NCBI GenBank assembly: GCA_003645615.1
Contig: QNBE01000003.1
Span: 1 to 42,316 of the forward strand
Origin: Caldifarciminota bacterium
GTDB lineage: Bacteria > Hydrothermota > Tepidihabitantia > B36-G15
DNA length: 42,316 nucleotides
Direction: 5' to 3'
Shown: piece after piece, positions 10,825 through 41,484 of the stretch
Layout: every line of letters starts with the position of its first letter
How positions within the stretch are numbered: the first letter of the stretch is position 1
Position numbers and translations under genes: made by a program
The notes under the pieces: generated by a model
Told to the model about the DNA's origin: nothing
The model's database searches: none
Seen by the model: the letters and a program-made list of their open reading frames with translations, nothing else

Positions 10825-11238
10825 CTAATCGTAGAAGGTTATATCCTTGACGGCGCTGAGGATGGCAAAGATCCGCTCATTGTTGCTCTCGGGATCGATC
10901 GGGGTGAAGAAGAACCCCTTCCGTTTTGGGGAATAGCCAAGCGTTGTCCCCCGCAACTCCTCCCCATCCTTGAAGACAACCTTCACCTTCTTTCCTACGA
11001 GCCGTTTATCCTTCACCTCGTCAAAATCCCTCTTTACTACCGGCCTTCTGGGATCCATCCCCTCCAGTTGCTTAACAAAAAAGACCGCCTTCAGCTCATC
11101 GAGGACGATGGTGTAACTCTTATCCTCCCCCTTCTCTTTGGCAACGAGATGGAAGACCTCCGCATCCGGCCGGAAGTCAGTTGTATACCCCCGGATCGTC
11201 CGGCCGTTAAGATAACGAGCAACGACGCGGTTAATCAT
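10825..11238 (-). CDS. Conserved hypothetical, first gene of envelope operon
   Basis: 137 aa ORF, promoter immediately upstream, 8 nt before next CDS; two related segments (GRTIRGYTTDFRPDAEVFHLV / GEELRGTTLGYSPKRKGFFFTP). Confidence 0.7.
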   Translation of the reverse strand: MINRVVARYLNGRTIRGYTTDFRPDAEVFHLVAKEKGEDKSYTIVLDELKAVFFVKQLEGMDPRRPVVKRDFDEVKDKRLVGKKVKVVFKDGEELRGTTLGYSPKRKGFFFTPIDPESNNERIFAILSAVKDITFYD

Positions 11239-11374: not shown

Positions 11375-11390
11375 CAGTATGGAGGTGATT

Positions 11391-12320
11391 ATGGTAGTGT
11401 TAATCATCATCAGTTTCACAATTGTTGATTCCGTAGATGTCGGCGATTTTGTTAATGGTCTTGCTTTTGCCAATGGTTACCTGTGGGCCTGTGAGAATTA
11501 CAGTGACAATATCTACAAGATTGATCCAGCCACTATGCAGATAGTTGGTTATTTCCACTATTCTGGCGGTCTCGATGGGTTAGCCCACGACGGTCTCTAT
11601 CTCTGGTTGGGCTACTATCCCGCTTCGATTCATAAGATCGATACCTTAGGAAATACAATCGGCACCTGGCCCTCACCAGGCGGTGAATACTCCTATGGTA
11701 TGACTTTCGATGGTCAATACCTCTGGCATTCAGATAAAAATCTCCGCCGGATTTACAAGCTTGATTACAACGATCCGACAGTAATAATTGAGTCCTTCCA
11801 AGTCTCCTGGGAGCCTCAGGACTTAGGCTGGTACCGGAGTCATCTCTGGGCGGTTGCCAATTACGTTCAAATTTACGAACTCGATCCCACCAACATGAAC
11901 ATTATTAACTCCTGGACAACCGGAAGGCCTTATAGTGCTGGTCTTGCCCTGGGGGGTGGATATCTCTGGTTTGGAACCACTAATCGAACCGGTTGGGTCT
12001 ATAAGGTCGAGGGTGTGGTAGATATAGAGGAGGAGGCCAAGAAATCGCCAGCCAGTGGATGGGTATCGGTATTCCCCAATCCCTTCCGAGGCTCAACAAC
12101 CTTGTCTTTAAAGCGCTTTGAGGATGAAAAGGTAGAGGTAAAAATCTTTAATGCTGCGGGAAGGTTGGTAAGATCACTCTTCTGTGGCAAAGCTGGTTCT
12201 GAACTAATTTGGGATGGCAGGGATGATTTTTATTCCCTTGTCCCACCCGGTGTCTACTATTTCCAGATTACGAGCGGCACCACCATAGTTAATCAGAAAA
12301 TTGTCTATCTTGGGAGGTGA
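11391..12320 (+). CDS. Secreted beta-propeller-like protein with T9SS-like C-terminal sorting domain
   Basis: Start moved from 11379 to 11391 because GGAGGTGATT SD precedes that ATG; repeated GxLWACE/YLWHSD/HLWAV/YLWFG blades; C-term VFPNPFRGSTTLSLKRF..VKIFNAAGRLVRSL...GVYYFQITSG. Confidence 0.75.
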   Translation: MVVLIIISFTIVDSVDVGDFVNGLAFANGYLWACENYSDNIYKIDPATMQIVGYFHYSGGLDGLAHDGLYLWLGYYPASIHKIDTLGNTIGTWPSPGGEYSYGMTFDGQYLWHSDKNLRRIYKLDYNDPTVIIESFQVSWEPQDLGWYRSHLWAVANYVQIYELDPTNMNIINSWTTGRPYSAGLALGGGYLWFGTTNRTGWVYKVEGVVDIEEEAKKSPASGWVSVFPNPFRGSTTLSLKRFEDEKVEVKIFNAAGRLVRSLFCGKAGSELIWDGRDDFYSLVPPGVYYFQITSGTTIVNQKIVYLGR

Positions 12321-20180: not shown

Positions 20181-21011
20181 ATGAAAGTTCGATTTTGGGG
20201 AACACGAGGCTCAATACCAGCACCCGGTCCCGAGACCAGCCGTTACGGTGGTAACACCACCTGTGTTGAGATCAGCAGCGGTAAGACCAGAATCATCTTC
20301 GATGCGGGAACCGGGATCAGAAAGCTCGGTTATCTCCTAAAGAGCGAATCTGAGCCGATCCGGATCCTTTTTACCCATTTCCACTGGGATCATATCCAGG
20401 GACTACCTTTCTTCATCCCACTCTATATTCCAGGCAAACCGATCGAATTTTATGCCTATCCTCCATTCTACCAGGGACTGAAAGAGATGATGGTGCACCA
20501 GCTCAAGAAGACCTACTTTCCGGCGGAATATCATACCCTACCTTCTCTGATTAAATTCTTCAAACTCAAAAAGAGAAACAACAATATCGGCCCGCTCCAG
20601 ATTTCGGTGATCGAAAATAACCATCCCGGCGGTGCTACCGGCTATCGGATCAGTGATGGTAAGAAGGTCATCGTCTTTCTCACCGATAATGAACTGAAAC
20701 CTCCGGAGGCGAAGACACCCTGGTCAGATTTTGTCACCTTCTCCCAGGATGCCGATATCCTTATCCACGATGCCCAGTATAATGATGAGGAACTGAAGCA
20801 GAAACCGGGCTGGGGCCACTCCTCCTATTCCCAGGTCTGCCAGCTTGCCTTAGAGGCAAAGGTAAAACAGCTCATCTTTACTCATCATGAGCCGGTCCAC
20901 TCCGATGATTTTATCGATGATATGGTCGATGAGTGGCGGGGATGGGTGAAGGAGAATGGTGGCGGTTTTGAGCTCTGGGCCGCGAGCGAGGGTGAGGAGA
21001 TCGAACTCTAA
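20181..21011 (+). CDS. MBL-fold metallo-hydrolase
   Basis: KVRFWGTRGSIPAPGPETSRYGGNTTCVEI, FTHFHWDHIQGLPFF, LIHDAQY, WGHSSYSQ, LIFTHHEP. Confidence 0.9.
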   Translation: MKVRFWGTRGSIPAPGPETSRYGGNTTCVEISSGKTRIIFDAGTGIRKLGYLLKSESEPIRILFTHFHWDHIQGLPFFIPLYIPGKPIEFYAYPPFYQGLKEMMVHQLKKTYFPAEYHTLPSLIKFFKLKKRNNNIGPLQISVIENNHPGGATGYRISDGKKVIVFLTDNELKPPEAKTPWSDFVTFSQDADILIHDAQYNDEELKQKPGWGHSSYSQVCQLALEAKVKQLIFTHHEPVHSDDFIDDMVDEWRGWVKENGGGFELWAASEGEEIEL

Positions 21012-26618: not shown

Positions 26619-28151
26619 ATGAAGGACCTTGACGACCTGAGGGCTGAGGCCCTTAAGGGCGGTGGGGAGGAAAGGATAAAGAGACAGCATGAGGCCGGCA
26701 AACTTACTGCCCGGGAGCGGATCGATCTCCTGCTCGATCCCGATACCTTCCAGGAGATCGGGATGTTTGTTACCCACCGGTGTCATGATTTCGGCATGGA
26801 GAAGAAGAAGATCTTGGGGGATGGGGTCGTCACCGGCTACGGCCAGATCCATGGCCGTCTGGTCTACATCTTTGCCGAGGATTTTACCGTTTTCGGCGGA
26901 TCGCTCTCCAAGGCCTATGCTGAGAAGATCTGTAAGATCCAGGAGCTCGCCCTCAAGAATGGTGCCCCGATCATCGGCCTGAAGGACTCTGGCGGGGCCC
27001 GTATCCAGGAGGGGGTCGATTCCTTAGCCGGTTATGCCGATTTCTTCCTGAGAAATGTCCTCGCCTCCGGTGTTATCCCCCAGATCTCGGCAATCATGGG
27101 ACCCTGTGCCGGTGGTGCGGTCTACTCTCCCGCCCTCACCGATTTCGTCTTTATGGTAAAAAAGACCAGCTACATGTTCCTGACCGGTCCGGATGTGATC
27201 AAGGCTGCCACCCATGAGGAGGTAACCTTCGAGGAGCTGGGCGGGGCGATGGTCCACAATACCAAGAGCGGTGTCGCCCACTTTGCCGCCGATTCAGAGG
27301 AGGAGTGTCTGGCGATGATCCGGAAGCTCCTCACCTTTCTCCCCCAGAACAACCTCGAGGATCCGCCCCGGAGTGAGTGCCATGATCCGATCGATCGGAT
27401 GGACGAGTCCTTAGACACCATCGTTCCCGAGGATCCGACCAAGCCCTATGATATGAAGGATGTTATCAAGAAGGTGGTTGACGATGGCGATTTCTTCGAG
27501 GTCCATGAGCACTTTGCCCCCAATATCATCACCGGATTTGCCCGGCTCGATGGCCAGCCGATCGGGATCGTAGCCAATCAGCCCGCCTACCTTGCCGGCG
27601 TCCTTGACACCCTCTCCTCGGCCAAAGGGGCGAGATTCGTCCGATTCTGCGACTGCTTCAACATCCCCCTCGTCGTCTTTGAGGATGTCCCCGGATTTCT
27701 TCCCGGAGTGAGTCAGGAGCACTCCGGGGTGATCAAGGAGGGGGCAAAGCTCCTCTATGCCTTCTGTGAGGCAACCGTCCCCAGACTGACCGTCATCACC
27801 AGGAAGGCCTACGGTGGTGCCTACTGCGTGATGAACTCCAAACATATCCGGGCCGATATCAACTTTGCCTGGCCAACCGGACAGATTGCGGTTATGGGGG
27901 CGGAAGGGGCGGTCAACATCCTCTACCGGAAAGAGCTTAAGCAGGCGTCGGATCCGGAGAAACTCCGCCAGAAGCTGATCAAGGAGTATAATGAGAAATT
28001 CAACAACCCCTATATCTCTGCCAGCCTCGGCTATATCGATGATGTGATTAAACCACATGAGACGAGATTAAAACTGATCCTGGCGCTCCGATCGATTGAA
28101 AATAAGAGGGATCGAAACCCTCCCAAGAAGCATGGCAACATCCCCCTTTAG
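26619..28151 (+). CDS. Acyl-CoA (propionyl-CoA) carboxylase beta subunit
   Basis: ATG at 26619 (track start 26610 is TTG inside the -10). [85 protein letters not shown]. Confidence 0.93.
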
Positions 28152-33230: not shown

Positions 33231-34017
33231 TCTCCTCATCTTAGTAGGCTCAGAACGGAAGAAAGGGAATTCCGAACTTCTTTCCCGGCTGGCGATCAGG
33301 CGGGCCCTCACCTATTTTGATCGAGGTGAGCTTATCTTTCTGAGAGACTTCAATCTCCTCCCCTGCAATGGCTGTATGGCCTGTATCGTCGGCGATAAGG
33401 CCTGCCCCCTTTCCGATGATTTTTATCCACTTTTGGATCGGATCGAATGGGCCAGCCATCTCCTCATCTTCGCCCCCACCTATGTCCTGATGCCCCCGGC
33501 CAAATTGAAGCTCCTCTTAGATCGCTATATTGCCGCTTATCCGAAGCGGAGGAAGGTTAAGCGGTTTGGAGGTGTGGGGGCGGTGATCGCCCTTCCTGAG
33601 TATGCCCAGTTCCAGCTTCCCTTCCTGAATCTCTTTCTCCTCGCCTTCGGTTTCGAACCGGTGATCAATCTCGAATTCATCGGTGCCGGTCCTGGTGAGG
33701 TCTTGCTTGATGATCAGCTACTTACTAAGATTGATAAACTGCTGACCAACCTCAGTAAAGGGGAAAAGGAGATTGGCGAGGGTTGCTGCCCCTTCTGCCT
33801 TTCACCTCTTTTATACTATGAGAAGGGAAAATTCTTCTGTCCGATCTGCAATGTCCCGGTAGAGTTAAGGGATGGAATTCCGGTCTATTCCGGTTCACCC
33901 CGCTGGAATGAGGCGACCCAGGAGGATCACTATCAGAACTGGATCCTGAAGACGAGGGACCGCTTCCGCGCTCGGCTCAGAGCGATTCTTAAGAAGAAGC
34001 GGGAACTTTCCTTATAA
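33223..34017 (+). CDS. Iron-sulfur flavoprotein-like NADPH-dependent FMN reductase with C-terminal zinc-ribbon-like module
   Basis: GTG start at 33223; LLILVGSERKKGNSELLSRLA flavodoxin-like start, CNGCMACIVGDKAC (CX2CX2CX6C), C-terminal CPFC...CPIC. Confidence 0.75.
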   Translation: MSNLLILVGSERKKGNSELLSRLAIRRALTYFDRGELIFLRDFNLLPCNGCMACIVGDKACPLSDDFYPLLDRIEWASHLLIFAPTYVLMPPAKLKLLLDRYIAAYPKRRKVKRFGGVGAVIALPEYAQFQLPFLNLFLLAFGFEPVINLEFIGAGPGEVLLDDQLLTKIDKLLTNLSKGEKEIGEGCCPFCLSPLLYYEKGKFFCPICNVPVELRDGIPVYSGSPRWNEATQEDHYQNWILKTRDRFRARLRAILKKKRELSL

Positions 34018-34440
34018 CTGTATCTTTACTGGATAGCTGAGATCACCGATGATGGTTGAGATATGGGCCTTCCCTTCTAAGCGGTAGTCGGCGGTTTTCA
34101 GCTTGATCGCCTCGACGATTGCCTCACCGATCTTCTTATAAACTAAGGTTATGGTTGTGGTAAAACGGGCCGATTTCTTCGCCTTGATCCTGAGTCCCTT
34201 ACCAGTAGTTCCGGAGAAGACCGAGGTATTGTTAACATAGAGGGTGTAGGTGAGGCGGTCGAGGACGGCATCGATCCGATTGGGATTTTCCACCTTGATC
34301 TCAAAGTCGAGCTTAAGATCGGTAAAGGAGAAGTCATAGGTATGGACCGACTCCAAGGAGAATCGACACTGGTGCAATGCCAGCCGTTCTCTAAAAAAGG
34401 AGCAGTTGAGAAGGAAAATCAGGATTAGGAACCGGTTCAC
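34012..34440 (-). CDS. LEA14/water-stress-domain-like exported protein
   Basis: FTDLKLDFEIKVENPNRIDAVLDRLTYTLYVNNTSVFSGTTGKGLRIKAKKSARFTTTITLVY. Confidence 0.7.
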   Translation of the reverse strand: MNRFLILIFLLNCSFFRERLALHQCRFSLESVHTYDFSFTDLKLDFEIKVENPNRIDAVLDRLTYTLYVNNTSVFSGTTGKGLRIKAKKSARFTTTITLVYKKIGEAIVEAIKLKTADYRLEGKAHISTIIGDLSYPVKIQL

Positions 34441-35000
34441 TCCTCCCCCTCATGGAAGATCGATTCGGAGAGTCTCCGGATGATCTCGGGATCCTTCAGG
34501 ATATCGGTGAGACGGCGGGCAACATCGGGTTCCTTCCTCCGGAGGAAGTTGAGCCGTTCCTTAACCCGCCGATAACTCGGCCTTTCTGATTTAAGCTCAC
34601 ACTTCAACTCCTCAATCTCGGCTAAGAGGTCGTCCTTGGTAAGTGATCGGGGACGGCTCCGGGCCACATCCCGCTTCAACTCCTCCAGACGGTGAATCGG
34701 ATCAGCCTTCTTTTCTATCTGATCCTTCCGGAACCTGAGATCAAACTCAAAATCATCCTCAACCAGATCGATCCCCTTGGCGGTTATCCGGGCCGAGATG
34801 AAGACATCCCCTTCCCTCGGTTTCTGCAGTTCAACATAGCCTTTCTCTTCAAGATAGATCATATTATAGTCAAGACGTTGGAGTGGCACCCCGATGATCT
34901 CACAGAACTCCTTGGCCAAGATCCGATGATAGGGGTGCTCCTGAAACTTCTCATAGAGGAGTCTGAGGATCTGCCGTCTCAGCTCACGGTCGCCGATCAT
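34437..35000 (-). CDS. Winged-helix-like DNA-binding protein
   Basis: Helical N-terminus LRRQILRLLYEKFQEHPYHRILAKEFCEIIGVPLQRLDYNMIYLEEKGYVEL resembling wHTH; charged helical C-terminus. Confidence 0.6.
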   Translation of the reverse strand: MIGDRELRRQILRLLYEKFQEHPYHRILAKEFCEIIGVPLQRLDYNMIYLEEKGYVELQKPREGDVFISARITAKGIDLVEDDFEFDLRFRKDQIEKKADPIHRLEELKRDVARSRPRSLTKDDLLAEIEELKCELKSERPSYRRVKERLNFLRRKEPDVARRLTDILKDPEIIRRLSESIFHEGEE

Positions 35001-35008
35001 TATCGGTT

Positions 35009-35082
35009 CGCGCCTGGAGGGAATCGAACCCCCAGCCTGTGGATTCGAAGTCCACCGCTCTATCCGATTGAGCTACAGGCGC
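35009..35082 (-). tRNA. tRNA-Arg (anticodon TCG)
   Basis: Minus strand GCGCCTG TA GCTC..GAGC GTGGA CTTCGAA TCCAC ... GGGGG TTCGATT CCCTC CAGGCGC G; complete cloverleaf, CCA not encoded. Confidence 0.93.
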
Positions 35083-35084
35083 AA

Positions 35085-35099
35085 GGGGGCTTCGCCCCC
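35085..35099 (-). other. GC-rich hairpin in the tRNA 5' leader (GGGGGC-GAA-GCCCCC)
   Basis: Perfect 6-bp stem, 3-nt loop, 2 nt from the mature tRNA 5' end. Confidence 0.7.
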
Positions 35100-35125
35100 G
35101 GGAAAAATCATCCTCATACCTTCCA

Positions 35126-35153
35126 ATTATAATTGACGGCCAATTGAGGTCAA
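35126..35153 (-). promoter_or_regulatory. Predicted tRNA promoter (TTGACC-N16-TATAAT)
   Basis: + strand attata / 16 nt / ggtcaa. Confidence 0.75.
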
Positions 35154-40189: not shown

Positions 40190-40472
40190 CTCTGGTAACC
40201 ATCCTTATCTCCCGGATTCCGATCCGGGGAAAATGGACCTGTATCTTCCTTAGGATCTCACCCTTAAGTAGGAAGAGATGATGATGCCAGGCCGAACCAT
40301 CTACTTCAATCACAAGAAGGCCATCCTTTAGATCGACCGGATGGGCGTGTTGAGCGATCTTTTCCCCTACAAGGTCTGGCCAGACCTTGATCAACCCCTC
40401 AACCTCAGACCGCACCGATATGGACCTGGTCACCTCATCAACGAGTCGATTTAACTTAATCGGTCGCTTCAA
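40182..40472 (-). CDS. DUF721 (DciA-like) protein
   Basis: WPDLVGEKIAQHAHPVDLKDGLLVIEVDGSAWHHHLFLLKGEIL; between recF and gyrB. Confidence 0.88.
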   Translation of the reverse strand: MKRPIKLNRLVDEVTRSISVRSEVEGLIKVWPDLVGEKIAQHAHPVDLKDGLLVIEVDGSAWHHHLFLLKGEILRKIQVHFPRIGIREIRMVTRDG

Positions 40473-41484
40473 CCCTCCCCCCTTTGAGACGAACGGTCTT
40501 CCCTTGCCAGTCTGGTGTTGTTGTGGCCAGAATCAGCTGACCTTTATTGGCGAGAAGACTCTTTAACCTCTCCTGATTATGCTTATCGATCTCAATAAAC
40601 GGCTCATCAAGGAGCAGAATCGGGTCTTTCCTTGCCTTGATCATCTCCGCCTCAACCAACCTCAGGATAATCCCGGCCAGCCGCTCTTCTCCCTCTGACC
40701 CATAGGCCCGAATGTCCTGGCCTGCCTTGGTGATACCGATCTCATCCCGATGTGGCCCAACAACCGTCAGCCTCAGTTCCCGCTCCCTTGATGCCGATCG
40801 TCTAAGATCAGGCCAGAAGCGCTCAGGAGAAGTGACAGGGTGGTAGGAGATCTCCAAGGGGAGATTCAACTGGTGCGCAAGGGCTTGAAACCATTCCTTA
40901 ATCCTGGGGAAGGTCTGATAGCGGATCTGATAGACCTTACTTCCCACTTCGACCAGCCGCTCACTCCATGCCTCAAGTTCCGGACCATACCGTTCCTGCA
41001 GTAAGAGCTGATTTCTCTGCTTCAGGATTGATCGATATTCGTTGAGGAGTAGGCGGTAGTTAGCATCACAACGGGCCAGGAGAGAGTTGAGCCAGTCACG
41101 TCGGAGTGAAGGAGAGCCCCGGACGATGAGGATGTCACTCAGGCTGAAAACCACCCCATCGAGCCAGCCATAATAGTCATGAAAACGGTGGCGCTCGATC
41201 CCATTCCGGAAGACCCGTTTGGTTCCATTTCTTACCCTTACCTCAACCCGATCCTCATCCCCAAAACCCTTAAGGGAGAACCCCTCTGATTCCAGATTGA
41301 CCAGTTCCGCCTCGGTGGCATTACGATAGGAGCGGAGATAGAGGAGATAATAGATCGCCTCAAGCAGATTTGACTTCCCTGCTCCATTCTCACCCACGAT
41401 CAGATTTATCCCGGGGTCGAAATCGATCTCGATCCCCTTCAGATTGCGGAAACCATCAACTTCAATCCGGTTGATTCTCGACAC
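40456..41484 (-). CDS. recF: DNA replication and repair protein RecF
   Basis: GTG start; IEVDGFRNLKGIEIDFDPGINLIVGENGAGKSNLLEAIYYL, GPHRDEI, LLDEPFIEID. Confidence 0.94.
   Translation of the reverse strand: MSRINRIEVDGFRNLKGIEIDFDPGINLIVGENGAGKSNLLEAIYYLLYLRSYRNATEAELVNLESEGFSLKGFGDEDRVEVRVRNGTKRVFRNGIERHRFHDYYGWLDGVVFSLSDILIVRGSPSLRRDWLNSLLARCDANYRLLLNEYRSILKQRNQLLLQERYGPELEAWSERLVEVGSKVYQIRYQTFPRIKEWFQALAHQLNLPLEISYHPVTSPERFWPDLRRSASRERELRLTVVGPHRDEIGITKAGQDIRAYGSEGEERLAGIILRLVEAEMIKARKDPILLLDEPFIEIDKHNQERLKSLLANKGQLILATTTPDWQGKTVRLKGGRVEATD

Follow-up and report, generated by a model that had tools for sequence, protein, structure and literature searches.

In mitochondria, tRNA genes abut protein-coding genes and excision of the tRNAs sets the 5' ends of mRNAs that are leaderless or nearly so, an organization known as tRNA punctuation; the spacers are about nil, and long polycistronic transcripts arising from few promoters are cut at the tRNAs. 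Bacteria are also known to transcribe a tRNA and a protein gene downstream of it from a shared promoter, as in the thrU-tufB arrangement of E. coli in which a tRNA-Thr is associated with tuf. Leaderless bacterial genes, in turn, are recognized by a TANNNT box about 12 bp before the start codon (PMC3160421). In archaea, RNase Z cleavage after a tRNA makes the 5' end of the downstream sRNA8 of Nanoarchaeum equitans (PMC3491384), and the 5'-UTR of the Thermococcus gene TK0306 contains a tRNA-Lys (PMC4247193).

Here we analyse a 42,316-nt stretch of the genome of a Caldifarciminota bacterium (the whole stretch is referred to as the window) in which 8 nt separate the end of a tRNA-Arg(UCG) gene from the start codon of a gene encoding a winged-helix protein. 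The reading that we favour, to which we assign a probability of roughly 70% on the basis of comparative sequence analysis, is that promoter-tRNA-ORF dicistrons of this kind are transcribed as a whole and that maturation of the tRNA 3' end creates a near-leaderless mRNA, which would make the arrangement a bacterial equivalent of the tRNA punctuation of mitochondria.

The tRNA-Arg(UCG) unit of the window

The elements of the unit are the following.

35126..35153, minus strand: promoter-like site, TTGACC (35153-35148), 16 nt, TATAAT (35131-35126), 11/12 consensus matches
35085..35099, minus strand: hairpin GGGGGC-GAA-GCCCCC in the tRNA 5' leader, from folding
35009-35082, minus strand: tRNA-Arg(UCG), Rfam RF00005, 73.7 bits (gathering score 29)
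35001..35008, minus strand: 8-nt spacer AACCGATA, between the tRNA discriminator and the ATG at 35000
34437..35000, minus strand: 187-aa winged-helix protein of an orphan family specific to the class, 22 aligned homologs
34012..34440, minus strand: LEA_2-domain protein, second ORF of the unit, GTG start, PF03168 at 61.2 bits (cut-off 25.4)

ARAGORN (which places a tRNA-Arg with anticodon TCG at 35008-35083 on the minus strand), Rfam and the sequence itself agree on the arrangement to which the sequence-only reading had drawn attention, namely a tRNA-Arg(UCG) lying 8 nt before the winged-helix ATG with no SD in the spacer. The discriminator base is the G at 35009, the acceptor stem closes at 35010 and CCA is not encoded. 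Inspection of AACCGATA revealed no SD, and its 8 nt are too few for a promoter or a terminator; it is predicted to constitute the entire 5' leader of the mRNA once the tRNA 3' end has been trimmed.

The TTGACC-16-TATAAT site at 35153-35126 is the best promoter-like site on the minus strand, the sole other match on this strand being inside the winged-helix ORF, and the promoter scan of the minus strand found no separate promoter between the tRNA and the ATG. With the only good upstream site preceding the tRNA and none in between, the earlier proposal that one promoter serves both tRNA and gene is supported; from the position of this site, transcription is predicted to start near 35118-35120. 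The place of a leaderless-type promoter, defined here as a TANNNT -10 box whose first base lies 10-13 nt ahead of the start codon, is taken up ahead of the window ATG by the acceptor end of the tRNA and AACCGATA, and no such box is present there. RNA polymerase would accordingly transcribe through the tRNA into the gene: whichever polymerase makes the mRNA must traverse the tRNA because the spacer can neither stop nor restart it.

Members of the family of the first protein of the unit occur in 25 of the 146 other genomes of the phylum, almost all of them of the same class, with 36-43% identity in the aligned set; a scan of genome contigs revealed no close homologs of the gene. No Pfam family scored over its cut-off, the best being DUF2513 (15.6 bits, cut-off 29.6), and HTH_34 also fell below the threshold (13.1 bits, cut-off 27). 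The AF2 model of the protein (pLDDT 79, pTM 0.46) displays a winged helix at residues 4-84, made of helices 4-21, 29-36 and 40-52, strands 56-59 and 69-72 and helix 74-84, and a C-terminal part that is helical. Foldseek searches with this model retrieved MarR/MntR/YodB-like winged helices with a probability of about 1.0 and a best E value of only 0.0076, and the N-terminal domain is predicted from the model to adopt a MarR/ArsR-like winged-helix fold. The LEA_2 ORF begins at a GTG that overlaps the stop codon TGA of the gene before it (GTGA), and the unit would therefore consist of the tRNA, the winged-helix protein and the LEA_2 protein.

Since no SD precedes position 35000, one may ask whether the start codon was misassigned and the winged-helix protein begins further downstream, behind a normal leader. 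We regard this as highly improbable. M1 is invariant in the 23 aligned sequences, which have many other invariant residues in common, and this supports the window ATG as the start codon; the conserved R8, R9 and I11 are too near M1 for a downstream start, and most start codons of the homologs either stand behind a leaderless promoter or are not preceded by an SD.

Recurrence of short tRNA-ORF gaps in the genome and the class

The layout of the window is found throughout the source genome. An ORF starts 6-12 nt downstream of 21 of the 39 tRNA genes (all of the tRNA genes found), most often at 7-10 nt, and the same is true of 4.7% of random genome positions; a tRNA directly 5' of ORFs at many loci, as in mitochondria, is thus also seen here. 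None of the 39 genes encodes CCA, and a promoter-like site of the type TTGACN-16-TANNNT lies no more than 75 nt upstream of 30 of them. Mostly 7-9 nt separate the end of the -10 box of these promoters from the tRNA, and transcription is therefore expected to begin at the tRNA or just before it. The locus of the window would accordingly belong to a set of dicistrons spread over the genome, each composed of a promoter, a CCA-less tRNA, 6-12 nt and a start codon.

Relative to this usual geometry, the leader of the window tRNA is unusually long, the -10 box ending 43 nt upstream of the tRNA. The hairpin in this leader was considered as a repeated element and rejected, as it is present in a single copy among the window and the loci of relatives compared. 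The leader also contains the start of a 14-codon ORF, MRMIFPGGEAPLRL (window 35073-35117, minus strand), which begins 8 nt past the -10 box of the tRNA promoter and stops at a UAG within the 5' part of the tRNA; it may be due to chance.

The ORFs downstream of tRNAs encode GltX, Prs, trigger factor, TilS, D-Ala-D-Ala ligase, LolA, YidD and a nitroreductase, among others. These ORFs are genuine genes: the Pfam domains of GltX, Prs, trigger factor, the nitroreductase and an ATP-grasp protein begin at residues 2-7, so that in several of the tRNA-led ORFs a start further downstream would not fit. With partners that are mostly housekeeping genes, the other units lend no support to the earlier suggestion that the expression of a regulator is specially tied to tRNA maturation.

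Could the tRNA and the gene merely abut in a compact genome, the gene being read from a tRNA-internal promoter or by read-through and processing having no role? Tight packing is common among neighbouring genes on one strand, 74 of 158 gaps being below 0, and the window pair is lineage-specific, both of which fit such a coincidence. The peak at 6-12 nt is, however, a property of the gaps between tRNAs and genes and not of the gaps between genes, only 9 of 158 of which fall in this range; no promoter-like site is present within the window tRNA, and the 5' end of a read-through transcript would still be set by trimming of the tRNA. We therefore find a coincidence quite unlikely. An assembly artefact is also an unlikely cause, as the layout is seen on many contigs and also in other, independent genomes.

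Leaderless-type promoters stand at 18 of 91 operon heads in the source genome, with a sharp peak at offsets -11/-12. The proposal that trimming of the tRNA 3' end yields a near-leaderless mRNA gains weight from this wide use of leaderless promoters and from the recurrence of the layout at about half of the tRNA genes, and, as a reading of the sequence, is supported by our analysis. Within the window, genes with leaderless promoters are found at 10825-11238 (minus), 11379-12320 (plus), 26619-28151 (plus) and 40456-41484 (minus).

The source genome also has a unit of the thrU-tufB type, in which tRNA-Thr(GGU) precedes EF-Tu with a gap of 25 nt and a GGAGG. Whereas this operon has an SD and a long gap, gaps of 6-12 nt and, mostly, the absence of an SD mark the window unit along with about 20 others; with this layout, the bacterial tRNA-mRNA operons come to include near-leaderless genes. 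tRNA-Thr(GGU) precedes EF-Tu, again with a long gap, in four families (L116, L230, L213, L261), in at least three of which an SD is present.

The same tRNA-by-tRNA survey in three other families of the class found an ORF start 6-12 nt after 17 of 36 tRNAs in G102, 10 of 38 in G065 and 2 of 38 in G088, a complete genome which hardly shows the layout; among named outgroup loci, 1 of 21 had it when the gap range was set slightly wider. The presence of the layout in two further families thus strengthens the resemblance to mitochondrial tRNA punctuation put forward in the sequence-only reading. Pairs in which a given tRNA retains a partner of one protein family across at least two families of the class are those of Val-UAC, Leu-UAG, Ser-CGA, Ala-CGC, Pro-CGG and Ile-GAU, and, with partners that could be named, in Arg-CCG/nitroreductase, Ser-GCU/GltX and Gln-UUG/Prs. 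The gaps of conserved pairs differ between families (8, 7 and 29 nt for Val-UAC), indicating that tight spacing is not universal. An SD-like 4-mer was found in 4 of 56 units with a gap of 4-13 nt versus 17 of 24 with a gap of 14-40 nt, a contrast that is partly geometric because a short spacer has little room for an SD.

Pattern counts covering 147 genomes, a crude measure, yielded 19 tRNA-like patterns with a 4-10 nt gap in the source genome versus a mean of 7.0 in 64 classmates (sd 2.5, maximum 12), and 6 versus a mean of 6.3 at the control gap; in the tRNA-by-tRNA surveys, some classmates do have the layout. The counts at the short gap reject the notion that the whole phylum has the layout to an equal degree; in the outgroup, the pattern search is hard to read as encoded CCA and tRNA clusters intervene. 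Four genomes of one family (G028-G031, f21) gave 46-61 matches to the tRNA-like pattern plus ATG, several-fold above any other genome, which probably reflects a repeat.

The tRNA-led units of the source genome and mitochondrial tRNA punctuation differ in several respects. Spacers of 6-12 nt replace the near absence of a spacer; the promoter-like sites proper to 30 of the 39 tRNAs take the place of a few promoters driving long polycistronic transcripts, most tRNAs heading one unit; and the setting is a bacterial chromosome of more than 2 Mb with an RNA-based RNase P. The archaeal dicistrons of a tRNA with an mRNA or sRNA are single cases, whereas the near-leaderless layout of this bacterium is recurrent. 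A search of open-access papers for bacterial tRNA punctuation with leaderless mRNAs returned nothing matching and, being confined to such papers, lends weak support to novelty.

Leaderless-type promoters on homologs of the winged-helix gene

The adjacency of tRNA and winged-helix gene, whose conservation the sequence-only reading had proposed to check, is not kept in relatives: no tRNA is present at any of 26 homologous loci in 25 genomes, within the approximately 1.5 kb inspected on each side of the gene where contigs allow, and the tRNA-Arg(UCG) of relatives is followed by other genes or by none, never by a member of the winged-helix family. A conserved Arg(UCG)/winged-helix pair is thus rejected. 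The sequence-only reading had named relatives with the gene far from the tRNA as a refuting result; these findings refute the conservation of the pair and leave the architecture untouched. The window pair is a lineage-specific case of a general, apparently undescribed arrangement.

About 12 of the 22 homologs instead have a promoter of the type TTGACN-16/17-TANNNT, with its -10 box 5-6 nt ahead of the start codon, and SD sequences are nearly absent before the start codons of the family. By the criterion of a TANNNT box approximately 12 bp upstream, the gene is classed as leaderless in much of its family. Given that leaderless promoters are found on the homologs and genome-wide, a near-leaderless message would be normal for both the gene and the organism. 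The window gene thus resembles described leaderless bacterial genes, a widespread group in the source genome that also includes its own homologs, in having next to no leader and no SD (PMC3160421). It differs from them in that their 5' end is the transcription start site, whereas that of the window gene would come from tRNA processing. The winged-helix gene would then be natively leaderless, with tRNA maturation substituting for the leaderless start site in the window.

Seven loci of one family of the class (L307-L310, L317-L319) have the winged-helix gene near lysS, lolE, lolD, mcsA, mcsB and a metallo-beta-lactamase gene, a neighbourhood in which the gene names were read off the sequences and not assigned by family search; the lysS/lolE/lolD/mcsA/mcsB neighbourhood is absent from the window. 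Fragments of the 5' half of tRNA-Arg recur many times in relatives (G081, G083, G089, G078; L323, L324, L347). Several tRNA-Arg genes are also followed by approximately 50 nt in common, and the two observations suggest a hotspot for the integration of mobile elements.

Proposed maturation of the tRNA and translation of the message

From the layout we infer not only cotranscription but also a cleavage site and a mode of initiation. An endonucleolytic cut right after the discriminator base would free the tRNA, to which CCA would then be added, and would leave an mRNA with a leader of approximately 8 nt and no SD; its translation would follow the leaderless or near-leaderless mode of which the lineage appears to make wide use. 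Judging from ribosome footprints, a folded tRNA 6-12 nt before a start codon would occupy the site in which upstream mRNA is usually held by the small subunit. Such a tRNA is expected to hinder the small subunit, and cleavage is therefore likely needed before translation.

The source genome encodes RNase P RNA (300.7 bits), so that the absence of RNase P is rejected as a cause of tRNA-proximal promoters. CCA is unencoded in the tRNAs of the class genomes surveyed, with two exceptions. The earlier designation of RNase Z as the trimming enzyme is unproven, as no protein over the TIGR02651 cut-off was found in any of 65 class genomes (the source genome and 64 relatives), 9 of 14 controls passing the same search. 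Two metallo-beta-lactamase proteins of the source genome match TIGR02651 weakly; one is encoded in the window at 20181-21008 (76 bits, cut-off 293) and may be considered a weak RNase Z candidate, and a further candidate is a protein of 281 aa encoded on contig 64. Cutting of tRNA 3' ends has been reported in Propionibacterium acnes, which has no obvious RNase Z homolog (PMC3848588).

The failure to find a canonical RNase Z with TIGR02651 in these 65 genomes would also fit a tRNA that stays attached, in which case either ribosomes translate an uncleaved fraction that still carries the folded tRNA at its 5' end, or the mRNA part is mostly discarded or lowly translated after cutting. There are precedents for attachment in a tRNA half that serves as an mRNA 5' UTR in Nanoarchaeum (PMC3491384) and in the tRNA-Lys of the TK0306 5'-UTR (PMC4247193). 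Yet the partners include the essential gltX, prs and trigger factor genes, which must be expressed, and the spacers cluster at 7-10 nt as if tuned. Together with the conflict between an attached tRNA and the small subunit described above, this makes the alternative unlikely in our view, and we retain the reading in which tRNA 3' maturation generates the message.

Tentatively, and at rather less than even odds, the uncultured class might use tRNA genes as standard 5' heads for many of its mRNAs, leaderless-type translation being gated by a tRNA 3' maturation that proceeds without canonical RNase Z, and the expression of housekeeping genes, among them gltX, prs, tilS and trigger factor, being coupled to the supply of particular tRNAs. 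tRNA punctuation is taught as a feature of organelles; a bacterial genome with about half of its tRNA genes so arranged would show that bacteria, too, can evolve it. If true, the arrangement would provide a natural link between tRNA supply and the birth of mRNAs and, beside leaderless promoters, a second route to leaderless-type messages.
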